A stretch of DNA of 63,106 nt from Rhodopseudomonas palustris (GTDB lineage: Bacteria > Pseudomonadota > Alphaproteobacteria > Rhizobiales > Xanthobacteraceae), in assembly GCA_016215605.1 (NCBI GenBank), contig JACRJB010000009.1, forward strand, positions 1 to 63,106, in the 5' to 3' direction. This document shows positions 16,857 through 32,038 of the stretch, in pieces. How positions within the stretch are numbered: the stretch's first letter is position 1; every line of letters begins with the position of its first letter. A model generated the notes under the pieces. The model saw nothing but the letters and a program-made list of their open reading frames with translations. It had not been told where the DNA came from and did not search any database. The translations under genes and the position numbers were made by a program.

Positions 16857-18086
16857 ATGCCAGAGACACTGATCAAGGTCGATCTCACACAGTCCGCCTA
16901 CGACAACGAGATGGTCCACAACCGCTGGCATCCGGACATTCCGATGGCGGCGTGGGTCAATCCCGGCGATGATTTCATCGTCGAGACCTACGACTGGACC
17001 GGCGGCTTCATCAAGAACAACGACTCGGCCGACGACGTCCGCGACATCGACCTGTCGATCGTGCACTTTTTGTCGGGTCCGATCGGCGTCAAGGGCGCGG
17101 AACCGGGCGACCTGCTGGTGGTCGATCTGCTCGACGTCGGGCCGATGAAAGAGAGCCTGTGGGGCTTCAACGGCTTCTTCTCCAAGCAGAACGGCGGCGG
17201 ATTCCTCACTGATCACTTCCCGCTGGCGCAGAAGTCGATCTGGGACTTCAAGGGCATGTACACCTCGTCGCGCCACATCCCGGGCGTGAACTTCGCCGGC
17301 CTGATCCATCCCGGCCTGATCGGCTGTCTGCCCGACCCGAAGCTGCTGGCGACCTGGAACGACCGCGAGACCGCGCTGATCGCGACGAATCCGACCCGCG
17401 TGCCCGGCCTCGCCAACCCGCCGTTCGGCCCGACCGCCCACATGGGCAAGCTGAAGGGCGACGACAAGGCCAAGGCCGCGGCCGAAGGCGCCCGCACCGT
17501 GCCGCCGCGCGAACACGGCGGCAACTGCGACATCAAGGATCTGTCGCGTGGCTCGAAGATCTACTTCCCGGTCTATGTTCCGGGCGGCGGTCTCTCCATG
17601 GGCGATCTGCATTTCAGCCAGGGCGACGGCGAGATCACCTTCTGCGGCGCCATCGAGATGGCCGGCTGGCTGCACATCAAGGTCGACATCATCAAGGACG
17701 GCGTCTCGAAATACGGCATCAAGAATCCGATCTTCAAGCCGTCGCCGGTGACGCCGAACTACAAGGACTATCTGATCTTCGAGGGCATCTCGGTCGACGA
17801 GGCCGGCCAGCAGCACTATCTCGACGTCACCGTCGCGTATCGGCAGGCCTGCCTGAACGCCATCGAGTATCTGAAGAAGTTCGGCTACTCCGGCGCCCAG
17901 GCCTATTCGATCCTCGGCACCGCGCCGGTGCAGGGCCACATCTCCGGCGTCGTCGACGTCCCCAACGCCTGCGCCACGCTGTGGCTGCCGACCGAGATCT
18001 TCGACTTCGACATGATGCCGTCTTCGGCCGGCCCGGTGAAGCACATCAAGGGCGACATCCAGATGCCGATCTCGCAGGATAAGTAA
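16857..18086 (+). CDS. fmdA: formamidase (acetamidase/formamidase family)
   Basis: A 409-residue cytoplasmic amidase of the FmdA_AmdA family, expected to hydrolyse formamide (and perhaps other short amides) to ammonia and the acid. Characteristic stretches are the N-terminal MVHNRWHPDIPMAAWVNPGD, the loop with DWTGGFIKNND, the metal-site-like HFLSGPIGVKGAEPGDLL and REHGGNCDIKDLSRGSKIYFP, and the late DVPNACATLWLP. Length matches FmdA of Methylophilus (about 400). A GGGGAG ribosome site lies ahead of the ATG. Directly behind the importer, it gives the operon its purpose: taking in an amide as nitrogen source. Formate would be the carbon product. Confidence 0.95.
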   Translation: MPETLIKVDLTQSAYDNEMVHNRWHPDIPMAAWVNPGDDFIVETYDWTGGFIKNNDSADDVRDIDLSIVHFLSGPIGVKGAEPGDLLVVDLLDVGPMKESLWGFNGFFSKQNGGGFLTDHFPLAQKSIWDFKGMYTSSRHIPGVNFAGLIHPGLIGCLPDPKLLATWNDRETALIATNPTRVPGLANPPFGPTAHMGKLKGDDKAKAAAEGARTVPPREHGGNCDIKDLSRGSKIYFPVYVPGGGLSMGDLHFSQGDGEITFCGAIEMAGWLHIKVDIIKDGVSKYGIKNPIFKPSPVTPNYKDYLIFEGISVDEAGQQHYLDVTVAYRQACLNAIEYLKKFGYSGAQAYSILGTAPVQGHISGVVDVPNACATLWLPTEIFDFDMMPSSAGPVKHIKGDIQMPISQDK

Positions 18087-18097
18087 CAGCCAACACC

Positions 18098-18222
18098 GTC
18101 ATGGCCGGGCATAGCCGTTCGGAGAACGGCGTTCTAAAGAACGCCTATGTCCCGGCCATCCACGTCTTCGTTGCTGAGCCGCATCAAGGCGTGGATGCCC
18201 GGGTCAAGCCCGGGCATGACGG
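18098..18222. repeat. palindromic intergenic repeat, GTCATGGCCGGGC family
   Basis: Starts GTCATGGCCGGGC and ends GCCCGGGCATGAC, with inner arms CCCGGCCATCCACG and CGTGGATGCCCGGG. The same outer and inner arms recur at 18737-18825. It fills most of the gap between formamidase and FmdB. Confidence 0.8.
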
Positions 18223-18360
18223 AAGTATTGAGGCAGCTGCCGCGCGATCATCATGATGGCAGTTGCCAATCCTTCCCTGCGCGAAGGGAGCGGGACGGTG
18301 CGGTTGATCCGCCCCGCTCCCATCGCCGGGACCAAATCGTCAGCGCAAGGGAAAACGACG

Positions 18361-18705
18361 ATGCCAGTCTACGAATACATGTGCGACGCCTGCGGGCCGT
18401 TCACCGATCTGCGGCCGATGGCGGAATACGAAGCGCCGCAGCCGTGCCCGGTGTGCGAGACCTCGTCGCCGCGGGTGCTGCTCACCGCGCCGAACTTCTC
18501 CTGCATGCCGGCGGCGCAGCGCAGCGCGCACGCCACCAACGAGAAGAGCCGGCACGCGCCGATGAGCGTCGGCGAATACAAGGCCAAGCACGCCCCCGGC
18601 TGTGGTTGCTGCTCCGGCCTGAAGAAACCGGCGCGGCTACAGACCCGCACCAAGAGCGGCGCCAAGGGCTTTCCGACCGCAAGGCCGTGGATGATCAGCC
18701 ACTGA
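18361..18705 (+). CDS. fmdB: FmdB family zinc-ribbon protein
   Basis: A 114-residue protein whose N-terminus (MPVYEYMCDACG, then CPVCET) is the FmdB/CxxC zinc ribbon: two CxxC knuckles about 20 residues apart, usually said to be regulatory in amide clusters of Methylophilus. The C-terminal half has an added cysteine cluster (GCGCCSGLKK) and a basic end. The start at 18361 is fixed by the family; the frame extends 36 codons further up without homology. Its position after formamidase fits the fmd theme, though the intergenic repeat may separate its transcription. What the zinc ribbon binds is unknown. Confidence 0.9.
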   Translation: MPVYEYMCDACGPFTDLRPMAEYEAPQPCPVCETSSPRVLLTAPNFSCMPAAQRSAHATNEKSRHAPMSVGEYKAKHAPGCGCCSGLKKPARLQTRTKSGAKGFPTARPWMISH

Positions 18706-18736
18706 GCCTTAGGTGCCGGACTAACAGTCCAACTCC

Positions 18737-18825
18737 GTCATGGCCGGGCTCGTCCCGGCCATCCACGTCTTTCTTGGGTCGAAGGCTGCATTCGTGGATG
18801 CCCGGGACGAGCCCGGGCATGACGG
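18737..18825. repeat. palindromic intergenic repeat, GTCATGGCCGGGC family
   Basis: Begins GTCATGGCCGGGCTCGTCCC and ends GAGCCCGGGCATGAC, with inner arms CCATCCACG and CGTGGATG. Lies between the convergent fmdB and cobS genes, where its hairpins could act as a terminator for both. Confidence 0.8.
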
Positions 18826-18844
18826 CGGTGATGATTTAGGTGGA

Positions 18845-19645
18845 CTAATTGCCCGCCAGCACCGCGGCCACGCCCAGCAGGAACCCGATCTCGAACATCT
18901 GCTCCACCGCCCCGAGCACGTCGCCGGTGTAGCCGCCGAGCAGGCGTTTGGCCCATGACACCATGACGGCGGCGAGCGTCGCGCCGAGGCCGAGGCCGGC
19001 GATCAGCGCGACCGGCGACACCAGCAGCAGCGGCAGCGCCGCCAGCGCCACGGTGACCAGCACCAGGATCCATTCGTCCTTGCGCATCGCCTCTTCGGCG
19101 TAGCTGACCTTCATCGCCTTGACGTCGCCGGCGTAGCCGAGCTTGCGCTTGACGAAGCCGGGCGTCGCGCGCGCCGCAGCGTGGCAGGCGATCAGGGTGG
19201 CGAGCGCGGCCCACAGCGGCAGTTGCGCCAGCGCGGTGGCGCGCAGCGCGACGTCGAGGCCGAGCGCCAGCCCGCCATAGGTGCCGAGCCGCGAGTCCTT
19301 CATGATCTCCAGCCGCCGCTCGACCGACCAGCCGCCGCCGAAGCTGTCGAAGGTGTCGGCGAGTCCGTCCTCGTGCATCGCGCCGGTGACGACGATCGAG
19401 GCCGCGACCGCCAGCAGCGCGGCGAGGCCGGGGCCGAACAGCGAATTGCCGATCAGCAGCACCAGCGCCGAGATCACGCCGATCCCGACGCCGGTGATCG
19501 GAAAGAACGTCATCGCCCGCGTCAGCCAGTCCGGCTCCGGCGCGCGGTCGGAATCCGGCACCGGCAGGATGGTCAGAAAGCGGATAGCGTCGAGCAATTG
19601 CGCGAGAGCCGGCGTTTGCCGGGGAGGCGGGGAATCGATGGACAT
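18845..19645 (-). CDS. cobS: adenosylcobinamide-GDP ribazoletransferase
   Basis: A 266-residue integral membrane enzyme of the last steps of cobalamin synthesis, joining adenosylcobinamide-GDP and alpha-ribazole. Family signatures are FLTILPVP near the start, the acidic metal-binding stretch HEDGLADTFDSFGGG (about 88-102), MKDSRLGTYGGLALG, and GYTGDVLGAVEQ near the C-terminus. About six hydrophobic segments are seen. Start at the ATG at 19645. Unusually alone: no cobU, cobT or cobC gene is visible next to it, and the 480 bases upstream show no B12 box that I can recognise. Confidence 0.95.
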   Translation of the reverse strand: MSIDSPPPRQTPALAQLLDAIRFLTILPVPDSDRAPEPDWLTRAMTFFPITGVGIGVISALVLLIGNSLFGPGLAALLAVAASIVVTGAMHEDGLADTFDSFGGGWSVERRLEIMKDSRLGTYGGLALGLDVALRATALAQLPLWAALATLIACHAAARATPGFVKRKLGYAGDVKAMKVSYAEEAMRKDEWILVLVTVALAALPLLLVSPVALIAGLGLGATLAAVMVSWAKRLLGGYTGDVLGAVEQMFEIGFLLGVAAVLAGN

Positions 19646-20127: not shown

Positions 20128-22146
20128 ATGACCGAACTCGCGGTGCAGCTTGGGTGTGTGGCCGCACTGCTGGCGGTCGCGGTCGTCGCCGCGCCGCTGA
20201 GCCGAACGCCCCGCCTCGCCACTGCGATCATTTACGGCGCGACGCTGATCGTCTGCGCGGTCGCCACCGCCAGTGCGCTGACCTGGCTGCTGCTGCATGC
20301 GGACGCCGCTGCCGAGCGCGTGCTGCCGATCGGGCTGCCCTGGCTCGGCGCACATCTGCGGCTCGATGCGCTGGCGGCGTTCTTCCTCGTCGTGATCAAT
20401 CTCGGCGGCACGCTGGCGAGCCTGTATGCGCTGGGTTACGGCCGCCACGAACACGCGCCGCATCGCGTGCTGCCGTTCTATCCGGCGTTTCTGGCCGGGA
20501 TGAATCTGGTCGTGCTCGCCGCCGATGCGTTCTCCTATCTGCTGAGCTGGGAGTTCATGTCGCTGGCGTCGTGGGCGCTGGTGATGGCGCATCACCGCGA
20601 CGCATCCAATCGCCGCGCCGGTTATGTCTATCTGGTGATGGCGAGCTTCGGCACGCTGATGCTGTTGCTCGCCTTCGGCCTGCTCGCGGGTTCTGCCGGC
20701 AATTACGATTTCGCCGCGATCCGCGCCGCGCAGCACACGCCCTATGTGGCGACGCTGGTGCTGATCCTGCTGCTGCTCGGCGCCGGCTCCAAGGCCGGCC
20801 TCGTTCCGCTGCATGTCTGGCTGCCGCTGGCGCATCCGGCGGCGCCGAGCCACGTCTCGGCGCTGATGAGCGGCGTGATGACCAAGGTGGCAATCTACGG
20901 ATTCATCCGCGTGGTGTTCGACCTGCTCGGCACGCCGGACTGGTCGACCTCGGGCATCGTGCTGGCGCTTGGCGGCGTCACCGCGGCGCTCGGCATTCTC
21001 TATGCGCTGATGGAGAAGGACCTGAAGCGGCTGCTGGCCTATTCGACGATCGAGAATGTCGGCATCATCTTCGTCAGTCTCGGCCTCGCGCTGGCGTTCC
21101 AGACCAATCACCAGCCGATTCCGGCGGCGCTGGCGTTCACCGCGGCGCTGTTTCACGTGCTCAACCATTCGCTGTTCAAGAGCCTATTGTTCTTCGGCGC
21201 CGGCGCGGTGCTGAGCGTCACCGGCGAGCGCGACATGGATCGGCTCGGCGGGCTGATCCACCGCATGCCTTTCACCAGCGTGGTGTTCCTGATCGGCAGC
21301 GTGGCGATCTCGGCGCTGCCGCCGTTCAACGGCTTCGTCTCGGAATGGCTGATCTTCCAGGCGGTGCTGCAGAGCCCGCAGCTGCCGCAATGGGGCCTCA
21401 AGATTCTGGTGCCGGCGGTCGGCGGGCTGATGGCGCTGGCCGCGGCGCTGGCGGCAGCGTGTTTCGTCAAGGCCTATGGCGTCACCTTCCTCGGCCGGCC
21501 GCGCGGCGCGGCGACGCTCGCCGCCAAGGAAGTCGACCGGTTCTCGCTGGCCGCGATGGCGATCCTCGCCGCTTTGTGCCTGCTCGCCGGCGTGCTGCCC
21601 GGCCTGGTGATGGACGCGCTGGCGCCGATCGCGACCGAGATTCTCGGCAGCCGGCTGGCGCCGCAGAGCGGGATGGCGTGGCTGTCGATCGTGCCGATCG
21701 CGCAGAGCCACAGCTCGTACAACGGCCTCTTGGTCGCGGTGTTCATCGCGGTGTCGGCGTCGCTGTCGTTTGGCGCGATCCGGCTGGTCTCGTCCGGCGC
21801 GGTGCGCCGCGGCCCGGCCTGGGGCTGCGGCTTCACCGACCCGGTGCCGCTGGCGCAATATTCGGCGGCCGGCTTCGCGCAGCCGATCCGCCGCGTGTTC
21901 GGCACGCTGATGTTCCGTGCCCGCGATCACGTCACCATGCCGCCGCCCGGCGACATCGCGCCGGCGCGGCTGCGGATCGAACTGCACGACCAGATCTGGG
22001 AGCGGATCTACGCGCCGCTCGCCGGCGGCATCATGGCCGCCTCGGTGCGGCTCAACCGGATGCAGCTGCTCACCATCCGCGGCTATCTCAGCCTGGTCTT
22101 CGTCACCCTCGTCACGCTGCTGCTGGTGCTCGCGATATGGACGTGA
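20128..22146 (+). CDS. hyfB: Hyf/complex I-like proton-pumping subunit (HyfB, NuoL/N type)
   Basis: A 672-residue membrane protein of the antiporter-like Mrp/NuoL family as found in hydrogenase-4 and formate hydrogenlyase. It has about sixteen hydrophobic segments. The conserved core has FSYLLSWEFMSLASWALVM, KAGLVPLHVWLPLAHPAAPS (lysine and histidine of the proton channel), MEKDLKRLLAYSTIENVGII and HVLNHSLFKSLLFFGAGAV. The C-terminal part (DPVPLAQYSAAGFAQPIRRV) matches HyfB rather than NuoL. First gene of a six-gene operon; its end overlaps hyfC by 10 bases. It should drive or use proton movement coupled to the peripheral arm. Confidence 0.9.
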   Translation: MTELAVQLGCVAALLAVAVVAAPLSRTPRLATAIIYGATLIVCAVATASALTWLLLHADAAAERVLPIGLPWLGAHLRLDALAAFFLVVINLGGTLASLYALGYGRHEHAPHRVLPFYPAFLAGMNLVVLAADAFSYLLSWEFMSLASWALVMAHHRDASNRRAGYVYLVMASFGTLMLLLAFGLLAGSAGNYDFAAIRAAQHTPYVATLVLILLLLGAGSKAGLVPLHVWLPLAHPAAPSHVSALMSGVMTKVAIYGFIRVVFDLLGTPDWSTSGIVLALGGVTAALGILYALMEKDLKRLLAYSTIENVGIIFVSLGLALAFQTNHQPIPAALAFTAALFHVLNHSLFKSLLFFGAGAVLSVTGERDMDRLGGLIHRMPFTSVVFLIGSVAISALPPFNGFVSEWLIFQAVLQSPQLPQWGLKILVPAVGGLMALAAALAAACFVKAYGVTFLGRPRGAATLAAKEVDRFSLAAMAILAALCLLAGVLPGLVMDALAPIATEILGSRLAPQSGMAWLSIVPIAQSHSSYNGLLVAVFIAVSASLSFGAIRLVSSGAVRRGPAWGCGFTDPVPLAQYSAAGFAQPIRRVFGTLMFRARDHVTMPPPGDIAPARLRIELHDQIWERIYAPLAGGIMAASVRLNRMQLLTIRGYLSLVFVTLVTLLLVLAIWT

Positions 22147-23093
22147 TCGCCGACATCGCCGTGCAGGGCGTGCAGATGCTGCTGGTGTTCCTGCTGGCTC
22201 CCCTGCTCACCGGCTTCATCCGCAAGGTCAAGGCGCGGCTGCAGCGTCGCCGCGGCCCGTCGCTGCTGCAGCCCTATCGCGATCTGATCCGGCTGCTGCG
22301 CAAGGAAGTGGTGCTCGCCGACAACGCCTCCTGGCTGTTCCGCGCCGTGCCCTACGTCACCTTCGCGGCGATCTGGGTCGCCGCCGCCTTGGTGCCGACC
22401 TTCGCCACCGGCCTGCTGTTCAACTGGACCGCGGATCTGATCGTGATCGTCGCGCTGCTCGGCACCGCGCGGTTCTTCCTCGCGCTCGCCGGCATGGATA
22501 TCGGCACCTCGTTCGGCGGCATCGGCTCGTCGCGCGAGGTGATGATCGCGGCGCTGGCCGAGCCGGCGATGCTGATGATCGTGTTCTGCGTCGCGCTGGT
22601 GGCCGGCTCGACGCATCTGTCGACGGTCGCCAATTACATCGCCTCGACCGCGGTCGGGCTGCGCGTCTCGCTCGGGCTGGCGATGATCGCGCTGGTGATC
22701 GTGGCGCTGGCCGAGAACGCCCGCATCCCGGTCGACAATCCCTCGACCCATCTCGAACTCACCATGGTGCACGAGGCGATGATCCTGGAATATTCCGGCC
22801 GGCATCTGGCGCTGATCGAATACGGCGCGCAGCTCAAGCTGCTGCTGTACGTTTCGCTGATCGTCTGCCTGTTCTATCCCTGGGGCATCGGCGTGTTCGG
22901 CGCCGGGCCCGTCGCCTATCTGGCCGGCGCGGCGCTGTATCTGTTCAAGATCACCATCGCGGGCTTCCTGCTGGCGATGTTCGAGACCGCCACCGCCAAG
23001 ATGCGGGTGTTCCGCGTGCCGCAGTTCCTCGGCGCCGCGCTGATGCTGGGTCTGCTCGGCACGCTTCTCCTCTTTGTGTCGAAGGGGCTGTGA
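22137..23093 (+). CDS. hyfC: Hyf/complex I-like membrane subunit (HyfC, NuoH type)
   Basis: A 318-residue subunit of the HyfC/HycD/NuoH family that links the membrane arm to the catalytic arm. About eight hydrophobic segments. The ATG at 22137 overlaps the end of hyfB. Family marks are RRGPSLLQPYRDLIRLLRKE (the conserved quinone-site-region loop), FALAGMDIGTSFGGIGSSRE-like residues, ENARIPVDNPSTHLELTMVH and the late ETATAKMRVFRVP. These are the expected loops in group 4 hydrogenases and related complexes. Nothing looks damaged. Confidence 0.92.
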   Translation: MDVIADIAVQGVQMLLVFLLAPLLTGFIRKVKARLQRRRGPSLLQPYRDLIRLLRKEVVLADNASWLFRAVPYVTFAAIWVAAALVPTFATGLLFNWTADLIVIVALLGTARFFLALAGMDIGTSFGGIGSSREVMIAALAEPAMLMIVFCVALVAGSTHLSTVANYIASTAVGLRVSLGLAMIALVIVALAENARIPVDNPSTHLELTMVHEAMILEYSGRHLALIEYGAQLKLLLYVSLIVCLFYPWGIGVFGAGPVAYLAGAALYLFKITIAGFLLAMFETATAKMRVFRVPQFLGAALMLGLLGTLLLFVSKGL

Positions 23094-23095
23094 CG

Positions 23096-23758
23096 ATGCA
23101 CGGGCTCGCCTTCGACATCTCGCATTCGCTGGCCGGCGGCCTGGTGCTGGTGTCGTTCATGATGCTGTATCAGGACCGGCTGACCTCGCTGCTCAACGTG
23201 TTCGCGCTGCACGCGGTGATGCTGTCGCTGTCGGTGGCGTGGCAGGCGCTGATCCAGGATGCGCCGCATCTCTACGTCACCGCGGCGATCGCGCTGCTGT
23301 TCAAGGCGATCATCATTCCGGTGGCGCTGCGCCGGATCGTCTACAAGCTCGGCATCCACCGCGACATCGAGACCGTGGTCGGGATCGGCCCGACCATGCT
23401 GGCCGGCATGGGGCTGGTGGCGCTGTCGCTGGCCCTGATGCTGCGCGTCACCGCCGACGCCGACGCGCTGGCGCGCGAGGACCTTGCGTTTGCGCTGTCC
23501 GTCGTGCTGCTCGGCCTGCTGTTCATGGTGACGCGGCGCAACGCCGTCAGCCAGGTGGTCGGCTTCATGTCGCTGGAGAACGGCCTGATCCTCGCCGCCA
23601 CCGGCGCCAAGGGCATGCCGCTGGTGGTCGAGATCAGCGTCGCGTTCTCGGTGCTGATCGCCTTCATCGTCATCGGCATCGTGCTGTTCCGGATCCGCGA
23701 GCGGTTCGACTCGGTCGACGTGTCGCAGCTCGACGTCTCGCGCGGAGAGCGGACATGA
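23096..23758 (+). CDS. hyfE: Hyf membrane subunit HyfE (NuoK-like plus extra helices)
   Basis: A 220-residue membrane protein of the HyfE family, with six to seven hydrophobic segments. Part of it resembles NuoK: AVSQVVGFMSLENGLILAA carries the conserved glutamate that NuoK-type subunits use. The last 20 residues are charged. The ATG is three bases after the hyfC stop; a GTG two codons earlier is an alternative. Its own stop overlaps the hyfF start (ATGA). HyfE is absent from hydrogenase-3, so this complex follows the hydrogenase-4 plan. Confidence 0.9.
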   Translation: MHGLAFDISHSLAGGLVLVSFMMLYQDRLTSLLNVFALHAVMLSLSVAWQALIQDAPHLYVTAAIALLFKAIIIPVALRRIVYKLGIHRDIETVVGIGPTMLAGMGLVALSLALMLRVTADADALAREDLAFALSVVLLGLLFMVTRRNAVSQVVGFMSLENGLILAATGAKGMPLVVEISVAFSVLIAFIVIGIVLFRIRERFDSVDVSQLDVSRGERT

Positions 23759-25206
23759 CGCTGTCCGGCATCGATCCGGTGGTGGGGGTGCTGCTGATCC
23801 CGGTCTGCGCCGCGGTCGTGCTGGCGCTGCTGCCGGGCTACAAACTCACCGCACAGCTCAACGTGCTGGCGAGCCTCGGCAGTTTCCTGTGCGCGGCCTC
23901 GCTGCTGGTGCTGCCGCGCCCGGCGCCGGGGCCCTACATCCTGGTCGACGATCTCAACATCGTCTTCATCGTGCTCAACACCTTCGTCGGCTTCACCACC
24001 AGCCTGTTCAGCGCCAGCTACATCGCCCACGAGCTCGAGACCGGCAAGCTGACGCCGACCTATCTGCGGTTCTACCACGCGATGTATCAGATCATGATGT
24101 TCGGCATGAATCTCGCGTTCATGTCGAACAATATCGGGCTGATGTGGGTGGCGGTGGAACTGGCGACGCTGACCACGGTGCTGATGGTCGGCATCTATCG
24201 CACGCCGGCGGCGCTGGAAGCCGCGTGGAAATACTTCATCCTCGGCAGCGTCGGCATCGCGCTGGCGCTGTTCGGCACCATCCTGGTCTACATGGCGGCG
24301 CGGCCGGTGATCGGCGAGGGCCAGGAGGGCATGATCTGGACCGTGCTGGTGGCGCGCGCCGCCGGCTTCGACGCGCCGCTGCTCAACGTCGCCTTCGTGT
24401 TCCTGTTCCTCGGCTACGGCACCAAGGTCGGCCTCGCGCCGTTGCACGCCTGGCTGCCGGACGCCCACGCCGAAGGCCCGACGCCGATCTCGGCGGTGCT
24501 GTCCGGCCTGCTGCTCAACGTCGCGCTGTATGCGCTGCTGCGCTTCAAGATGCTGCTCGCCGCCAACGGCGATGCGATGCCGCCCGGCGTGCTGATGATC
24601 GTGATGGGGCTGGCGTCGCTGCTGTTCGCCGCCTTCATGCTGTATCGCCGCCGCGACATCAAACGGCTGTTCGCCTATTCGTCGATCGAGCACATGGGCA
24701 TCATCGTGTTCGCGTTCGGCATGGGCGGGCCGCTGGCGAATTTCGCCGGGCTCTTGCACATGGTGATGCACAGCCTGACCAAATCGGCGATCTTCTACGC
24801 GGTCGGCCACATCACCCAGGTCAAGGGCACGCAGTCGCTGGCGAAGATCCGCGGCATCACCGAGACCCATCCGGTGCTCGGCTGGGGCCTCGTCGTCGGC
24901 GTGGTGGCGATCGCCGGGCTGCCGCCGCTCGGCATCTTCATGAGCGAATTCCTGCTGGTGTCGTCGACCTTCGCGCGCTCGCCGTGGCTGGCGCTGCTGC
25001 TGGTGTTCGGCATTCTGGTGGCGTTCGGCGCGTTGACGCTGCGGCTGACCGGGATCGCCTTCGGCCGGCCGCGCGGCAGCCGCGCGCCGGTGCAGGCGTC
25101 CTACGTGCCGATGTTCGCGCATCTGGCGCTGGTGCTGATCGCCGGCGTCTATCTGCCGGCGCCGGTGGTGGCGTGGTTCCAGCACGTCGCCAAGCTGCTG
25201 GGCTAG
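23755..25206 (+). CDS. hyfF: Hyf/complex I-like proton-pumping subunit (HyfF, NuoN/M type)
   Basis: A 483-residue second antiporter-like subunit with about fourteen hydrophobic segments. It has WVAVELATLTTVLMVG (channel glutamate), GYGTKVGLAPLHAWLPDAHA (lysine/histidine motif), YRRRDIKRLFAYSSIEHMGI and LLHMVMHSLTKSAIFYAVGH. The ATGA overlap with hyfE implies translational coupling. With hyfB, this gives two candidate proton or sodium pathways. HyfD is not present, so the membrane arm is B-C-E-F. Confidence 0.92.
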   Translation: MTLSGIDPVVGVLLIPVCAAVVLALLPGYKLTAQLNVLASLGSFLCAASLLVLPRPAPGPYILVDDLNIVFIVLNTFVGFTTSLFSASYIAHELETGKLTPTYLRFYHAMYQIMMFGMNLAFMSNNIGLMWVAVELATLTTVLMVGIYRTPAALEAAWKYFILGSVGIALALFGTILVYMAARPVIGEGQEGMIWTVLVARAAGFDAPLLNVAFVFLFLGYGTKVGLAPLHAWLPDAHAEGPTPISAVLSGLLLNVALYALLRFKMLLAANGDAMPPGVLMIVMGLASLLFAAFMLYRRRDIKRLFAYSSIEHMGIIVFAFGMGGPLANFAGLLHMVMHSLTKSAIFYAVGHITQVKGTQSLAKIRGITETHPVLGWGLVVGVVAIAGLPPLGIFMSEFLLVSSTFARSPWLALLLVFGILVAFGALTLRLTGIAFGRPRGSRAPVQASYVPMFAHLALVLIAGVYLPAPVVAWFQHVAKLLG

Positions 25207-25221
25207 GGAGTATTCGCGCCG

Positions 25222-26733
25222 ATGCCGTCGCTGATCGATCTCAACCTCGAAGGCCTGCAGGTGGCGCGGCATCGGCCGTGGCCCCGCACGGTGGTCGACA
25301 GCGCGGTGTGGAGTTTCGCGGCGCGGATGCTGAGCGAGCGGCAGTGGCAATTGCTGTCGCTGTGGGGCGAGCCTGCGAGCGTGCACATGGCGCTGTTCGA
25401 TCCGCGCAGCGGCGAGGTCGGGATCGTCAGTCTGGATTGCCCGCATGGCTCGTTTCCCTCAGTGGCGGCGAAGCATCTGCCGGCGCTGCGGCTGGAGCGC
25501 ACCATCACCGATCTGTTCGGGCTGAAGCCCGACGGCGCGATCGACGATCGGCCGTGGCTCGATCACGGCCAATGGGGCGTGCATACGCCGCTGGGCGCAA
25601 AGACGGACGCCTCGTCACCGTCGCCGGCCTATCGCTTTCTGCCGGTCGAGGGCGACGGCACGCATCAGGTCGCGGTCGGCCCGGTGCATGCCGGCATCAT
25701 CGAGCCCGGCCATTTCCGCTTCACGGTGAGCGGCGAGACCGTGGTGCGGCTGGAGCAGCGGCTCGGCTACGTCCACAAGGGCATCGACGGACTGATCGCC
25801 GGCGCCGATCTCGCCCGCGCCGCGCAACTTGCTGGCCGCGTCTCCGGCGATTCGACGGTGGCCTATGCGCTGGCGTTTGCGCGCGCGGTCGAGACCGCCG
25901 CGGAGATCGCGGTGCCGGCACGCGCGGTGTGGCTGCGGGCGCTGTGCGCCGAACTCGAGCGCCTCGCCAATCACCTCGGCGACATCGGCGCGATCTGCAA
26001 CGACGCGGCGTTCGCGATCATGCTCGCGCAGTTCGGTGTGCTACGCGAGAGCGTGCTGCGCGCCGCTGATGCCGCATTCGGTCATCGCCTGATGCGCGAC
26101 GTGGTGACGCCGGGCGGCGTCGCGCGCGATCTCGACGACGCGGGCACGGCCGCGATCCGCAAGGCGCTGGCCGTGGTGCGGAGCAAGTTGCCCGAGCTGA
26201 TCGAGCTGTACGACAGCACGGCGTCGCTGCAGGACCGCACCGTCGCCACCGGCACCCTGAAGCCGGCGCTGGCCGAGCAATACGCCGCCGGCGGCTTCGT
26301 CGGCCGTGCCTCCGGTCGCGGCTTCGATGCGCGGCGCACGCTGGCCTACGCGCCCTACGACGAGCTGCGTTTCGATATCCCGGTGCTGACCGAGGGCGAC
26401 GTCGACGCCCGCATCTGGATTCGGATTCGCGAGGTCGAGCAGAGCCTGTCGCTGGTCGATCAGATTCTCGACCGGCTGCCGCGCGGCGACATTTTCATCG
26501 CGCCGACGCTGCCGGCGGAGGTCTGCGAAGGCCTGGCGCTGGTCGAAGGCTTCCGCGGCGACATTCTGGTCTGGCTGCGGCTGCAGGGCGGCGTCGTCGA
26601 GCGCTGCCATCTGCGCGATCCGTCGTGGTTCCAATGGCCGCTGCTGGAGGCGGTGATCGAGGGCAACATCATCGCCGACTTCCCGCTGTGCAACAAGTCG
26701 TTCAACTGCTCCTATTCGGGCGTGGATCTGTAG
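25222..26733 (+). CDS. hyfG: Hyf-type large subunit lacking most NiFe ligands (Ehr-like, NuoCD type)
   Basis: A 503-residue subunit combining a NuoC-like N-terminal part (about 1-150) with a NuoD/HycE-like part. True group 4 hydrogenases bind NiFe through two CxxC pairs. Here the first pair, expected after GYVHKGIDGL, reads RVSGDS (206-211), with serines at both cysteine positions. The second, at the C-terminus, reads NCSYSGVDL (495-503): one cysteine (496) remains and the other is Ser499. The active site therefore probably cannot hold NiFe. This is the defining trait of the energy-converting hydrogenase-related (Ehr) complexes. Electron donor or acceptor is unknown. No C-terminal extension for maturation cleavage is seen, in line with a cofactor-free subunit. 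Confidence 0.88.
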   Translation: MPSLIDLNLEGLQVARHRPWPRTVVDSAVWSFAARMLSERQWQLLSLWGEPASVHMALFDPRSGEVGIVSLDCPHGSFPSVAAKHLPALRLERTITDLFGLKPDGAIDDRPWLDHGQWGVHTPLGAKTDASSPSPAYRFLPVEGDGTHQVAVGPVHAGIIEPGHFRFTVSGETVVRLEQRLGYVHKGIDGLIAGADLARAAQLAGRVSGDSTVAYALAFARAVETAAEIAVPARAVWLRALCAELERLANHLGDIGAICNDAAFAIMLAQFGVLRESVLRAADAAFGHRLMRDVVTPGGVARDLDDAGTAAIRKALAVVRSKLPELIELYDSTASLQDRTVATGTLKPALAEQYAAGGFVGRASGRGFDARRTLAYAPYDELRFDIPVLTEGDVDARIWIRIREVEQSLSLVDQILDRLPRGDIFIAPTLPAEVCEGLALVEGFRGDILVWLRLQGGVVERCHLRDPSWFQWPLLEAVIEGNIIADFPLCNKSFNCSYSGVDL

Positions 26734-26735
26734 CG

Positions 26736-27269
26736 ATGCGCAAGCTGCTGTTCGAAAGCCTGTTCGCCAAGCCGCTGACGGAAGCCGCGCCGGCCCCCGA
26801 CGACGCCGCCACGGCCGAACTCGCCGCGCTGGTCGAGGCGACGGCGCGGCGCAAGCTCGGCCGCAGCCTCGCGATCCGCGAGGTCGATGCCGGCTCCTGC
26901 AACGGCTGCGAGCTGGAAATCCACGCGCTGAACAACGCGTATTACGACGTCGAACGGTTCGGCCTGCGTTTCGTCGCCTCGCCGCGCCATGCCGACGTGC
27001 TGATGGTCACCGGGCCGGTGACCCACAACATGCGCGAGGCGCTGCGGCTCACCTACGACGCGGTGCCCGGGCCGAAATGGGTGGTTGCGGTCGGCGATTG
27101 CGCCAGGGATGGCGGCTGCTTCGCCGGCAGCTACGCGATCGCCGGCGGCGTCTCCGCGGTGATCCCGGTCGACGTCCACATCCCCGGCTGCCCACCGCCG
27201 CCGTTGCAGATCCTGCGCGGCCTGCTGGCGCTGCTCGAAGGCGTCGCGGGACACAAGCCCGCGCGTTGA
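26736..27269 (+). CDS. hyfI: Hyf/complex I-like small subunit (HyfI, NuoB type)
   Basis: A 177-residue iron-sulfur subunit of the NuoB/HycG/HyfI family. The four ligands of the proximal 4Fe-4S cluster are present: the pair in GSCNGCELE, one in VGDCARDGG (with another Cys four residues on, as in this family) and one in IPGCPPPPLQILRG. Starts two bases after the hyfG stop. Its intact cluster site contrasts with the lost NiFe site in the large subunit, which argues that electrons still pass through this arm. No ferredoxin-like (HyfH/NuoI) or HyfA gene follows, so the partner carrying electrons in is not encoded here. Confidence 0.92.
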   Translation: MRKLLFESLFAKPLTEAAPAPDDAATAELAALVEATARRKLGRSLAIREVDAGSCNGCELEIHALNNAYYDVERFGLRFVASPRHADVLMVTGPVTHNMREALRLTYDAVPGPKWVVAVGDCARDGGCFAGSYAIAGGVSAVIPVDVHIPGCPPPPLQILRGLLALLEGVAGHKPAR

Positions 27270-28009: not shown

Positions 28010-28251
28010 GCGTCGCCGACCTCCTCATCCGCTGCCGCTGATCGATCCGATCGAACCGCCGTCTGGTGACGGTGGCGGGGCTCGCTTTGTCGCGAGTCGC
28101 CGCGCGCAAGCGCCGGGAGTCCGGCTTCGTCCTCCATCTGTCGCGCTGCACCGTCGATCCCTCGGGATTGGGCGGCGTCGAGGCCGTCGTTTCTGACGCC
28201 CATCGAGCCTCCGCAGCGCGCTTTCCACAATTCCAACTGTCGAGACACCGC

Positions 28252-30993
28252 ATGACCATGCCGATGGACGCCGCGATCAAGGGCCCGAACGACGAAGCGT
28301 CGGAGGAGATGTGGCATGCCGTCGATGCCGACCGGGTTCTGGCACTTCTCTCGACCGAACGCGGCGGCCTGAGCAGCGCCGAGGCAGCGCGGCGGCTTTC
28401 GACCTACGGGCCGAACGCGCTGCCGGAAGCCGCCCGCCGGCACCCACTGCTGCGGTTTCTCGCGCAGTTTCACAACACGCTGATCTACTTCCTGCTGGCG
28501 GCGGCGGTCGCGGCCGCGATCCTCGGCCATCGCATCGACGCCGCGGTGATCGTCGCGGTGGTGACGATCAATGCGATCGTCGGCTTCATTCAGGAGGACA
28601 AGGCCGAGAAGGCGCTCGCCGCGATCAAGAAGATGATCTCGCCGCGCGCCCACGCCTGGCGCGACGGTCACCGCATCGTCGTTCCGGCCGAGGACCTCGT
28701 GCCCGGCGACGTGGTGATGATCGAGGCCGGCGATCGCGTGCCCGCCGATCTGCGCCTCACCCGCGCCCGTGGCCTGTTGATCGACGAGGCGATGCTGACC
28801 GGCGAGTCCGTCGCCTCGGAGAAGCACGACCAGCCCGCGGCGCCGAACGCGCCGCTCGGCGACCGGCTGTGCATGGCGTTTTCCGGCACGCTGGTGTCGG
28901 CCGGGCAGGGCTTCGGCGTCGTGGTCGCGACCGGCGAGCGCACCGAGATCGGCCGCATCTCGACGCTGATCCAGGGCGTCGAGCAACTCACCACGCCGCT
29001 GCTCGGGCAGATCAACCAGTTCGGCCAGCGCTTCACCTGGGTGGCGATCACGGCGGCCGCCGCGATCTTCGCATTCGCCACGCTGGTGCGCGGCTATGAC
29101 TGGCCGGATGCGCTGATCGTGGTGGTTGCGATGGCGGTCGGCGTCGTGCCGGAAGGCCTGCCGGCGGTGATCACCATCACCCTGGCGATCGGCGTGCAGC
29201 GGATGGCCAAGCGCAACGCCATCATTCGCAGCCTGCCGGCGGTCGAGACGCTCGGCGCCACCTCGGTGATCTGTTCCGACAAGACCGGCACGCTGACCCG
29301 CAACGAGATGACCGCGCGGCGCGTCGTCACCGCCGACCACACCGTGATGGTCGGCGGCGCCGGCTACGTGCCGGTGGGCAAGCTGACCAGCGCAGGCCAC
29401 GAGGATGCCGCGGCGATCACCGCTTCGCTCCAGCTCGTCCGCGCCGGCCTGTTGTGCAACGACGCCCAGTTGCGCCAGACCGGCGACAACTACGTCGTCG
29501 ACGGCGATCCGATGGAGGGCGCGCTGGTCGCGCTCGCGATCAAGGCCGGGCTCGATCCCGCACGCGAGCGCACCGACTGGAAGCGCTCCGACGAAATCCC
29601 GTTCGACGCCCAGCATCGCTTCATGGCGACCCGCCATGCCGCGGCGGCGGGCGGTCAGGTGATCTTCGTCAAGGGCGCGCCCGAGCGGCTGCTGGCGATG
29701 TGCCAGAGCCAGACCGGCCGCGGCGGCCTGCGGCCGCTCGACGCCGCGTTCTGGACCGATCAGATCGGGCGCGCGGCGGCCGAGGGCGAGCGGGTGCTCG
29801 GCTTCGCGGTGAAATCGCCGGCGCGGTCCAGCGATCAGCTCGGCTTCGCCGATCTCGACGAGGGCTTCGCCTTCATGGGGCTGGTCGGCTTCATCGATCC
29901 GCCGCGCGACGAGGTGATCCAGGCGATCGCCGAATGCCGCTCGGCCGGCATCGTGGTCAAGATGATCACCGGCGACCACGCCGCCACCGCCGATGCGATC
30001 GCGCGGCAGCTGAAGCTGACCGACAGCCCCGACGTCGTCAGCGGCGCCGATCTCGACCGCACGCCGGAGGCGGCCTTCATCGGCCTCGCCACCCACACCG
30101 ACGTGTTCGCGCGCACCAATCCCGAGCACAAGCTGCGCATCGTCCGCGCGCTGCAGTCGACCGGCGCCGTGGTGGCGATGACCGGCGACGGCGTCAACGA
30201 CGCGCCGGCCCTGAAGCAGGCCGATGTCGGCATCGCGATGGGCCACAAGGGCACCGAGACCGCCAAGGAAGCCTCCGAGATCGTGCTGCTCGACGACAAT
30301 TTCGTTTCGATCGTCGCGGCGGTGCAGGAAGGCCGCACCGTCTACGACAACATCCGCAAGGTGATCGCCTGGACGATCCCGACCAATGGCGGCGAGGTGT
30401 TCGTCGTCATCCTCGCCATCCTGTTCGGCTTCACGCTGCCGATGACGCCGGTGCAGATTCTGTGGATCAATTTGATCCTCACCGTCACGCTCGGCCTCGT
30501 GCTGGCGTTCGAGCCGCCGGAGCCGGGGGTGATGAAACGGCCGCCGCGCCCGGCGCATGCGCCGCTGCTGTCGCCGTTCCTGGTCTGGCGCATCGTCTTC
30601 GTATCGTTGCTGTTCACCGTCGGCTCGCTCGGGATCTTCTTCTACGCGCTCGGCCGGGGGCTGCCGGTCGAAACGGCGCGGACGATGGTCGTCAATGCGC
30701 TGGTGGTGTTCGAGATCTTCTATCTGTTCAACGTCCGCTATCTGCACACCAGCTCGTTCTTCTTCCGTGGCGCGCTCGGCACGCCGGCGGTGCTGGCGGC
30801 GCTGATCGTGGTGATCGCGGCGCAGCTCGCCTTCACCTACGCGCCGTTCATGCACAGGCTGTTCGAGACCACGCCGCTGTCGCCGGCCGAGGGTCTGGTG
30901 ATCATCGGCGCCGGCGTCGTGATGATGGTCGTGCTCGAGCTGGAGAAGCTGCTGATGCGCCGGATCGGCGCGCTGCGCAGCCTCGAACCGTAG
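28252..30993 (+). CDS. P-type cation-transporting ATPase (P2/PacL-CtpF like)
   Basis: A 913-residue cation pump. Domains: N-terminal cation-ATPase domain (about 15-85), actuator with TGESVASEKH, phosphorylation site DKTGTLTRNE with Asp343, nucleotide domain with KGAPERLLAM, hinge TGDGVNDAPALKQADVGIAM and a C-terminal set of membrane helices. The fourth membrane helix has VPEGLPAVITITLAI as in calcium-type pumps. The sixth reads NLILTVTLGLVLAFEP, lacking the Asp of the classical NxxTD calcium site, so the ion could be something other than calcium. I chose the ATG at 28252; the frame runs 62 codons further without a ribosome site. A universal stress protein follows 40 bases on. Confidence 0.9.
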   Translation: MTMPMDAAIKGPNDEASEEMWHAVDADRVLALLSTERGGLSSAEAARRLSTYGPNALPEAARRHPLLRFLAQFHNTLIYFLLAAAVAAAILGHRIDAAVIVAVVTINAIVGFIQEDKAEKALAAIKKMISPRAHAWRDGHRIVVPAEDLVPGDVVMIEAGDRVPADLRLTRARGLLIDEAMLTGESVASEKHDQPAAPNAPLGDRLCMAFSGTLVSAGQGFGVVVATGERTEIGRISTLIQGVEQLTTPLLGQINQFGQRFTWVAITAAAAIFAFATLVRGYDWPDALIVVVAMAVGVVPEGLPAVITITLAIGVQRMAKRNAIIRSLPAVETLGATSVICSDKTGTLTRNEMTARRVVTADHTVMVGGAGYVPVGKLTSAGHEDAAAITASLQLVRAGLLCNDAQLRQTGDNYVVDGDPMEGALVALAIKAGLDPARERTDWKRSDEIPFDAQHRFMATRHAAAAGGQVIFVKGAPERLLAMCQSQTGRGGLRPLDAAFWTDQIGRAAAEGERVLGFAVKSPARSSDQLGFADLDEGFAFMGLVGFIDPPRDEVIQAIAECRSAGIVVKMITGDHAATADAIARQLKLTDSPDVVSGADLDRTPEAAFIGLATHTDVFARTNPEHKLRIVRALQSTGAVVAMTGDGVNDAPALKQADVGIAMGHKGTETAKEASEIVLLDDNFVSIVAAVQEGRTVYDNIRKVIAWTIPTNGGEVFVVILAILFGFTLPMTPVQILWINLILTVTLGLVLAFEPPEPGVMKRPPRPAHAPLLSPFLVWRIVFVSLLFTVGSLGIFFYALGRGLPVETARTMVVNALVVFEIFYLFNVRYLHTSSFFFRGALGTPAVLAALIVVIAAQLAFTYAPFMHRLFETTPLSPAEGLVIIGAGVVMMVVLELEKLLMRRIGALRSLEP

Positions 30994-31033
30994 CAACCGC
31001 AACAAGCGCGTTCATTCAACAAGGAGAGTTGCC

Positions 31034-31930
31034 ATGGATCAGAGCACACGCGAGACGATGCATCCCGGTCTCGGAGTTGTGGCCGTCGCCACGGATTTCT
31101 CGGCGCGGTCCGATCGCGCGGTGCGTCGCGCCGCCCTGATCGCCAGGGACGCCGGCGCGCGGCTGGTGCTGGTTCACGTCGTCGACGACGACCAGCCCGA
31201 GCACATCGTCGCGGCGGAATGCGAGATCGCCGAAACCGCGCTGGCGGACGCGATCCGCGAACACGCCCACCTGGCCGGGCTGCGCTGCGTTCCGCTGGTG
31301 GTGTGCGGCACGCCGTTCGACGGCATCCTGCAGGCCGCGCGGCAGCAGGGCGCCGATCTGTGCGTGATCGGCAGCCATCGCCGGGCGTTTCTCAAGGACA
31401 TCTTCGTCGGCACCACCGCCGAACGCGTGATCCGCAACAGTCCGATCCCGGTGCTGATGGCGAACATCGACCCGGCGCTGCGCTACGCGACGGGGCTCGC
31501 CCCGGTCGAGCTGTCGGACGTCTCGGTGCAGGCGCTGAGCGTCGCGCGCCAGCTCGGCCTGCTGCCGCGCAGCCGGGTCTCGATCCTGCACGTCTACGAC
31601 GCCGCCGCGGCCGGCATGCTGAGCTACGCCGGCGTGCGCAAGTCGAACGTCGACGACTATCTGGTCGAGATACGGGTCGAGGCGGTGCGGGAGCTGGTGC
31701 GCTTCCTCGATCCGATCGATCTCGGCGATCTCGATTATTCCACGATCGTCAAGGAGGGCATCGCGCCGGCGGTGATCGTCGATGTCGCCGGCGAACTGCG
31801 TCCCGATCTCGTGGTGATCGGCACCCATGGCCGGCAGGGTGCCATCCGGCTGCTGCTCGGCAGCGTCACCGAAGAGGTATTGCGGCGGCTGCGCCAGGAC
31901 ATTCTCGTGGTACCGGTGCGCGACGCGTAG
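31034..31930 (+). CDS. universal stress protein with two UspA domains
   Basis: A 298-residue protein made of two tandem UspA folds (about 12-145 and 155-297). The first begins VVAVATDFSARSDRAVRRAA and has GSHRRAFLKDIFVGTTAERV; the second ends with the complete ATP-binding motif GTHGRQGAIRLLLGSVTEEV and VVPV. The ribosome site AAGGAGAG precedes the ATG. Close behind the P-type ATPase, so they are probably co-transcribed. Usp-ATPase pairs are common in oxygen- or acid-stress regulons of this class; no FixK-type box was found here to prove that. Confidence 0.9.
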   Translation: MDQSTRETMHPGLGVVAVATDFSARSDRAVRRAALIARDAGARLVLVHVVDDDQPEHIVAAECEIAETALADAIREHAHLAGLRCVPLVVCGTPFDGILQAARQQGADLCVIGSHRRAFLKDIFVGTTAERVIRNSPIPVLMANIDPALRYATGLAPVELSDVSVQALSVARQLGLLPRSRVSILHVYDAAAAGMLSYAGVRKSNVDDYLVEIRVEAVRELVRFLDPIDLGDLDYSTIVKEGIAPAVIVDVAGELRPDLVVIGTHGRQGAIRLLLGSVTEEVLRRLRQDILVVPVRDA

Positions 31931-32038
31931 CAAGCTGCGCTGCAGCACACGCGGCGCTTGCGAGCGCCGCCGTCCCGCATCAGACTGACCGCGACATCGG
32001 CGCGCCGTGAATCGTCGCCGAACCAACGGGAGGTCACG

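Follow-up and report, generated by a model that had tools for sequence, protein, structure and literature searches.

The stretch of DNA analysed here (the window, 63,106 nucleotides) comes from contig JACRJB010000009.1 of Rhodopseudomonas palustris (assembly GCA_016215605.1) and carries at 20128-27269 on the + strand six intact open frames in the order hyfB, C, E, F, G, I. The operon lies on contig C45 of a 5.79 Mb genome, and its neighbouring genes overlap or are separated by no more than 15 bases, in agreement with an initial annotation that called the six genes intact and tightly packed and proposed a Hyf-like complex that has lost its NiFe site. What the initial annotation missed is that this complex is already known by name, as Hyq. 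The genes and the sites within them are as follows.

20128..22146, + strand: hyfB/hyqB, antiporter-like membrane subunit (NuoL/M type), 672 aa; NCBIfam PRK06521 'hydrogenase 4 subunit B', 902 bits (cut-off 667)
22137..23093, + strand: hyfC/hyqC, NuoH-like membrane subunit, 318 aa; Pfam NADHdh, 5e-42
23096..23758, + strand: hyfE/hyqE, membrane subunit, 220 aa; NCBIfam hydrogenase 4 membrane subunit, 79.8 bits, under the cut-off of 136
23755..25206, + strand: hyfF/hyqF, antiporter-like membrane subunit, 483 aa; NCBIfam PRK06458.1-3 'hydrogenase 4 subunit F', 922 bits (cut-off 533)
25222..26733, + strand: hyfG/hyqG, large subunit, a NuoC::NuoD fusion without NiFe ligands, 503 aa; Pfam Complex1_49kDa and alignment with HycE
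25843..25854, + strand: codons for Ser208-Gly-Asp210-Ser211, which replace the first CxxC pair of hyfG; Ser208 in 62/64, Asp210 in 64/64 and Ser211 in 57/64 orthologs
26689..26730, + strand: C-terminal signature of hyfG, CNKSFNCSYSGVDL, where the protein ends; Asn495 in 64/64, Ser497 in 59/64 and Gly500 in 64/64 orthologs
26736..27269, + strand: hyfI/hyqI, small Fe-S subunit (NuoB/HycG-like), 177 aa; Pfam Oxidored_q6, 3e-33
26898..26909, + strand: HyfI Cys55 and Cys58 (CxxC), predicted proximal [4Fe-4S] site, aligned with NuoB and HycG; 105/105 rows
27099..27101, + strand: HyfI Cys122, predicted proximal [4Fe-4S] site; 105/105 rows
27189..27191, + strand: HyfI Cys152, predicted proximal [4Fe-4S] site; 104/105 rows

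The hyqRBCEFGI operon (AZC_4361-4355) of Azorhizobium caulinodans ORS571 was described as encoding an 'endo-hydrogenase' (PMC2650096, PMC2930871, PMC3357923). A six-gene operon in our genome set (G013) encodes a HyqG, 62% identical to the window HyfG, that matches the printed length of 504 aa and the printed cysteine positions 258, 491 and 497, and from these matches we take it to be the hyq operon of A. caulinodans ORS571. Both operons have the same six structural genes in the same order, both have lost the CxxC pairs and both keep the same Fe-S cysteines, but hyqR comes first in the A. caulinodans operon and was not found directly before hyfB in the window. R. palustris strains HaA2, BisA53, BisB18 and BisB5 are named in the alignment legend of the 2012 paper, whose authors noted that HyqG lacks both CxxC motifs and called a NiFe site 'uncertain, if not unlikely' (PMC3357923).

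HyfG aligns with HycE (7z0s_E) at E 5e-54, with no gap in the C-terminal region up to a shared aspartate, Asp502. HycE Cys241, Cys244, Cys531 and Cys534 fall on HyfG Ser208, Ser211, Ser497 and Gly500, and therefore none of the four NiFe ligands is kept; HyfG Cys496 aligns with HycE Pro530, and Ser499 aligns with HycE Ser533, so it is not at a ligand position. We compared 64 orthologs, namely the window and 63 of 77 references (the 14 dropped were mostly close relatives of kept rows), at 39-89% identity to the window. The ligand positions hold Ser208 in 62, Ser211 in 57, Ser497 in 59 and Gly500 in all 64, and no row has more than one cysteine across the four. The large subunit of a group 4 NiFe hydrogenase has a C-terminal peptide that is cut off by a maturation protease. 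HycE and E. coli HyfG extend beyond the terminal motif, whereas none of the 64 rows has a residue past position 503. As a control, true group 4 large subunits from the same family, found by the same search, carry RVCGIC and DPCYSC (G046, G050, G053), and each of these three genomes encodes both a true group 4 enzyme and the six-gene operon. The alignment supports a more complete loss of the NiFe site than initially proposed, with all four ligands gone and no C-terminal peptide left to cleave. The initial annotation was right that the site is lost and that Ser208 and Ser211 stand at cysteine positions, but it wrongly placed Ser499 at a third, and Cys496, which it regarded as the one ligand kept, is one residue off the ligand position and varies among orthologs.

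A single ortholog (L021, from G057) has a cysteine at position 208, the first ligand position, and other residues at the remaining three. Beside the Hyq type, large subunits that lack a C-terminal CxxC fall into no fewer than three other kinds: one ends in ASFGLSNAECDR (L217 and L220, from G021 and G097), one in ASFGLTIAGCDR with a HycF-like match nearby (L218 and L219, from G049 and G146), and one in SSFGILSTGVDL or ASFGHLVTGVDL (L227 and L228, from G174 and G306).

Hyq was called a group 4 NiFe hydrogenase in the 2009 and 2010 papers (PMC2650096, PMC2930871), and some copies are annotated as nickel-dependent hydrogenase or HypE. If it were a NiFe hydrogenase after all, the metals would have to be held by non-cysteine residues or by shifted cysteines, which we consider very improbable, since serine or glycine occupies the ligand positions and no shifted cysteine pair is conserved among the 64 orthologs. 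The shifted-cysteine version was ruled out because the C-terminal alignment is ungapped to Asp502 and positions 496 and 499 vary within the family.

Judged from the alignment, the vacated NiFe site is a different conserved pocket that looks rebuilt and not decayed. Asp210, His251, Asp254, Arg362, Glu404, Arg445, Asp466, Asn495 and Gly500 are identical in all 64 orthologs, Glu161, His288 and Lys492 in 63, and Ser208, Asn260 and Asp293 in 62, and by their positions relative to HycE these residues probably line one pocket. The structure paper on formate hydrogenlyase (FHL) describes a proton path and canopy that include His284, Glu437, Arg395 and Arg478 of HycE, and calls Asp529 'strictly conserved' (PMC9474812). 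HyfG keeps the first four and has asparagine (Asn495) in place of Asp529 in 64/64 rows. The AlphaFold model of HyfG (mean pLDDT 90.4) has HycE (7z0s_E) as its best solved fold, with a TM score of 0.91. In a tree of 59 rows (35 of the 64 orthologs and 24 others) the six-gene large subunits form one group with support 99/95, apart from HycE/HyfG and from NuoD; the divergent L227 and L228, from small alphaproteobacterial genomes, fall inside this group on a very long branch. The missing HyfA, D and H and the missing ligands would suit a decayed relic of FHL, but a scan of named genomes found at least 581 stretches that encode a relative, the six genes recur in the same order, the pocket residues are invariant, and the group stands apart from true HycE/HyfG, even those of the same family. 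We find a relic hardly credible.

The small subunit retains its Fe-S ligands, as first reported, and each of the four HyfI cysteines is missing from at most one of 105 rows. For the membrane arm we compared the channel positions of E. coli described in the complex I literature. HyfB Glu142, Lys222, Lys351 and Glu406 are identical in 105/105 rows, HyfC Glu142, Asp200, Glu207 and Glu218 in 82/82, and HyfF has Glu135 in 108/108 rows and Lys224 and Glu398 in 107/108. The positions of NuoM K265 and NuoL D400 are unconserved, and E. coli HyfF and HyfB deviate from Nuo there too. Most of the channel residues compared are intact. This strict conservation, with no redox partner genes recurring beside the operon, would also be compatible with a redox-free ion transporter or a DAB-like CO2-hydrating pump on the retained scaffold, but the near-invariant cluster cysteines of HyfI are hard to explain without electron transfer, and we regard a redox-free function as unlikely.

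The neighbourhood was surveyed in 121 loci with 121 distinct sequences, all of which contain hyfG. Since genes can be obscured at contig ends or by overlapping frames, the counts per gene (hyfG 113, F 111, B 109, I 105, E 84, C 84) are minimum values. In a tblastn scan (E 1e-6) with E. coli queries and the HypD of the source genome, HycF, HycB and HyfA each matched in one locus and HypD in two, and HycI, HycH, HypA, HypB, HyfH, FocB, NuoE, NuoF, NuoG and NuoI matched in 0/121; the catalytic subunit of formate dehydrogenase was not among the queries. The two loci with HypD on the operon's own stretch are L184 (Oryzibacter oryziterrae, 1280-2305) and L202 (Pleomorphomonas sp., 1441-2466). In the window, the 20-kb stretch around the operon has no HycF, HyfH, NuoI, HypA, HypB, HypD, HycI protease or NuoE/F/G-like gene, which bears out the initial remark that no ferredoxin-like subunit or maturation genes adjoin it. 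A gene of the ferredoxin, NuoI-like, NADH-module or Hyp kind is not a recurrent neighbour of the operon in these 121 loci.

The best 80 of the at least 581 relatives are mostly from Alphaproteobacteria, with a few labelled otherwise, and within the family of the source genome 67 of 149 genomes are hyq-positive, including five with partial genes. HypD is absent from 29 of the 56 good-quality owners in the family and, counting owners of any quality, from 18 of 23 in the class set and 40 of 62 in the phylum set (each count includes one partial gene and leaves out G745, a 36%-identity partial match; some genomes of the phylum set also belong to the family and class sets). In the family set, the only one in which NifH was counted, it exceeds the cut-off in 24 of the 56 good-quality owners and does not in the other 32; counting contig-end fragments (G114, G130, G145) shifts these numbers to 27 and 29. 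The claim in the A. caulinodans papers that hyq is absent from non-diazotrophs is contradicted by these 32 owners. A link to HypD might favour a NiFe enzyme, in that hyq and hypD co-occur with an odds ratio of 7.8 and HypD lies near the operon in two loci (L184, L202), but 29 of 56 owners have no HypD and the protein has no maturation peptide.

Three of the 24 nifH-bearing owners have no HypD (G079, G108, G067). G079 has an FeFe hydrogenase. G108 and G067, both Rhodopseudomonas, have hyq as their sole hydrogenase-like gene set and lack HypD, FeFe hydrogenase and any other NiFe hydrogenase. These two genomes disagree with the statement that all Rhodopseudomonas encode uptake hydrogenase genes (PMC12016538); the R. 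palustris strains of another study are stated to encode no other hydrogenases (PMC9973337). The counts of owners without HypD and without NifH and these two nifH-bearing, hyq-only Rhodopseudomonas are new here, as is a cysteine count given below. The source genome (G000) encodes HypD, on the same contig as a Hup-type hydrogenase. It also has five NifH-like matches of at least 370 bits on C52 and C64, three of them over the cut-off, which suggests several nitrogenases besides Hup and hyq.

Matches were also found in 78 plasmid records, 43 of them at 60-80% identity. Among the plasmid orthologs of hyfG, H22 and H23 carry the annotation 'hydrogenase expression protein HypE', and H29 and H39 that of 'nickel-dependent hydrogenase large subunit'.

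The explanation we favour, with about as much belief as doubt, is that Hyq is a redox-driven, one-cluster, ion-pumping oxidoreductase of another, putative substrate that uses no NiFe chemistry. It would be a six-subunit member of the complex I superfamily with one [4Fe-4S] site in HyfI and a largely intact membrane arm, and could work as a reversible redox-driven ion pump. A soluble low-potential carrier, ferredoxin or flavodoxin, may exchange electrons with the HyfI cluster, and would meet it directly because there is no NuoI/HycF-like subunit. The second partner may be bound in the rebuilt pocket of HyfG; it could be quinone held in a different pose, or some other small molecule that donates or accepts electrons. 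We count the lack of a NuoI or ferredoxin subunit, the 29/56 owners without HypD and the 32/56 without NifH for a function other than H2 chemistry.

Several observations weigh against this explanation, and those on the sequence side are as follows. A His and a Tyr of NuoD, which we take to hold the quinone head in complex I, correspond to Ile160 and Gly209 in HyfG, so these quinone residues are not conserved. As for pumping, the position of NuoH E216 is Ser203 in the window HyfC and Ala, Ser, Thr or Gly in 81/82 rows, whereas it is Glu in HycD and E. coli HyfC. In the family, hyq occurs above chance with hypD (the odds ratio of 7.8) and with nifH (odds ratio 3.75), both uncorrected for relatedness, and a role in H2 metabolism would explain both. 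A NifA-type TGT-N10-ACA element precedes six of the 24 operons whose genome has nifH and none of the eight whose genome lacks it, with 6% in shuffles.

The published genetics of A. caulinodans weigh in the same direction. Deletion of hyq in a hup-negative strain raised H2 release in N2-fixing cultures from 16 to 540 according to the A. caulinodans papers, and in nodules the hup-negative strain released 0.32 and the hup hyq double mutant 27 umol H2 per g per h, while deletion of hyq alone gave 0.36 vs 0.30 (PMC2930871). A hyq+ strain without nifK and hupSL produced 56,600 pmol H2 per 10^9 cells per min at <1 uM O2 (PMC3357923), and hyq was required for H2 uptake at 20 uM O2 and for ~80% of evolution at <1 uM O2 (PMC2930871, PMC3357923). 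The A. caulinodans papers state that H2 recycling is full with the whole hup/hyp cluster deleted, and say the same of R. centenaria without hup/hyp, with data not presented. In G013 no NiFe or FeFe hydrogenase was found besides a HupL-type gene, a HupV-type gene and a weak third match (all in one 12-kb stretch) and hyqG. Its single HypD lies 8 kb from the HupL-type gene, and the hup/hyp deletion should therefore leave no NiFe maturation. Loss of H2 activity on deletion is printed for this ortholog for deletions of the whole operon, in vivo only. Taken at face value, the published genetics describe H2 chemistry without NiFe.

Hyq would then be a true reversible H2:quinone oxidoreductase with a non-NiFe H2 site that needs no Hyp proteins, made up of the HyfI cluster and the rebuilt pocket. 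The in vivo results, the uptake said to persist without hup/hyp, the hydrogenase inventory of G013 and the strictly conserved polar residues of the pocket region all speak for this, and we treat it as a serious contender that is nonetheless improbable. A more specific version, in which H2 is activated in a Ser/Asn/Asp-lined pocket beside the single [4Fe-4S] cluster of an ion-pumping H2:quinone oxidoreductase working reversibly without NiFe, FeFe or Hyp proteins, is compatible with the published genetics and the conservation found here taken together, and we put it forward as a doubtful but coherent idea.

Other evidence speaks against a non-NiFe hydrogenase. Cys258, Cys491 and Cys497 were proposed in the A. 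caulinodans papers as 'completely conserved', but all three occur together in only 45 of 64 orthologs (the cysteine count mentioned above), and they therefore make no general H2 site; we rejected them as a family-wide site. The window's Cys259 also aligns with a HycE cysteine. No invariant cysteine site and no residue set fit for an H2-splitting metal was identified in this analysis, and an H2 role has to accommodate the 32 of 56 owners without NifH. The genetics come from one laboratory, with all seven genes, including the regulator, deleted together. The 2012 authors say that a cell-free uptake assay 'is not at hand' (PMC3357923), and a term search of the 2009, 2010 and 2012 papers returned no genetic complementation ('complement' in the 2009 paper refers to primer sequences only). 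The same kind of search of the 2012 paper gave no membrane fraction, nickel or in vitro work, and 'purif' for complex I only (PMC3357923). Among the papers listed by the literature searches, no title or opening of an abstract dealt with a purified Hyq or its metals.

In Table 1 of the nodule study, the double mutant releases H2 (27) at a rate no lower than that of its acetylene reduction (25) (PMC2930871). Such values would leave few electrons for N2, which points to an error in the scale or to a nitrogenase that produces H2 almost exclusively. A nitrogenase reducing N2 would be expected to release less H2 than this, and this too counts against a hydrogenase. If Hyq is a pump of another substrate, deletion of hyq in A. 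caulinodans would affect H2 indirectly, by altering the supply of electrons to nitrogenase or the redox balance.

The Hyq family is already known, and what is at stake is its function: it is either a widespread ion pump of unassigned substrate that has been mistaken for a hydrogenase, or an enzyme that carries out H2 chemistry without known metal sites. Copies are annotated 'hydrogenase 4', 'nickel-dependent hydrogenase large subunit' or 'HypE' although the NiFe ligands are absent. The other-substrate and NiFe-free-hydrogenase explanations predict opposite H2 results in one deletion strain.

A small helix-turn-helix (HTH) gene, hyqR, is present in 55 of the 121 loci, mostly directly upstream, and in 14 of the 32 loci used for a promoter scan. 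We do not treat it as defining since R. centenaria and BisB5 are printed with six tags. The A. caulinodans hyq upstream element has been called a NifA box (PMC2650096). A strict search for a sigma-54 and NifA pair found none in the window or in 31 other upstream regions, and the A. caulinodans operon, for which the 2009 paper claims such a pair, also scored zero; a relaxed sigma-54 scan found 1/32. A palindrome like ATGATGTTTTAAACATCAT lies ~90 bases before hyqR in L235 and also occurs in L099, L240, L241 and L242, and in L095 ~144 bases before hyfB. In A. caulinodans the element is a palindrome ~90 bases before hyqR and perhaps the operator of HyqR, the small HTH protein; the upstream scans detected no sigma-54 site together with the palindromes.

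Beyond the six genes and hyqR, the largest groups of recurring neighbours, read by eye, were an antisense artefact in 16 of the 121 loci, ABC ATPases in 14, a methyltransferase-like gene in 11 and a short-chain dehydrogenase in 8. In the window the operon is flanked at 16857-19645 by acetamidase/formamidase and CobS (other strand), and at 28066-33637 by a P-type cation ATPase, a universal stress protein and an FAD-linked oxidase; acetamidase/formamidase, CobS, the P-type cation ATPase and the universal stress protein are beside hyq in just 3 to 5 of 121 loci. On a plasmid of Methylovirgula sp. HY1 (L215, 1-6273), an F-type ATP synthase operon is divergent beside an HTH gene and hyfBCEFGI.

Compared with known systems, the window complex has neither the four cysteines nor the C-terminal maturation peptide of a group 4 NiFe hydrogenase. 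E. coli hydrogenase-4 and FHL (HyfA-J, HycB-G) have homologous B, C, E, F, G and I subunits and a large subunit of the same fold (the TM score of 0.91 to HycE), but the large subunits share only 28-29% identity, and the window has no HyfA/D/H, NiFe ligands or C-terminal peptide. Six-gene hyfBCEFGI sets have been described in Cupriavidus metallidurans and C. eutrophus, and a 'group 4' cluster that also has six genes, AFE2149-54, in Acidithiobacillus ferrooxidans (PMC2864759, PMC2621215). Compared by description, these have been interpreted as a Hyf operon with genes missing or as a group 4 enzyme that evolves H2. Complex I shares with Hyq the core subunits NuoB, C/D, H and L/M and several proton-path residues, but Hyq has no NADH or NuoI modules (0/121 loci) and has Ile160 and Gly209 in place of the quinone His and Tyr.

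The MBS/MBX complex of Pyrococcus furiosus is a complex I relative that has no working NiFe site and reduces another substrate. Its large subunit (6u8y_L, E 2e-25) is more distant from HyfG than HycE or MbhL is, and the FHL structure paper has a remark on it (PMC9474812). Ehr is a name given to group 4 hydrogenase relatives without Ni/Fe-coordinating residues (PMC6349859, PMC10284858), reported from Geobacter, Riflemargulisbacteria, comammox Nitrospira and ammonia-oxidising archaea. Ehr genes have been found beside formate dehydrogenase and nuoE/F-like genes, a candidate electron-input module (PMC6349859), whereas NuoE/F/G were found in 0/121 Hyq loci. The window complex is a group 4 homolog with 0/4 Ni/Fe ligands and is likened to Ehr by its printed description, and the initial name, Ehr, fits this published usage.

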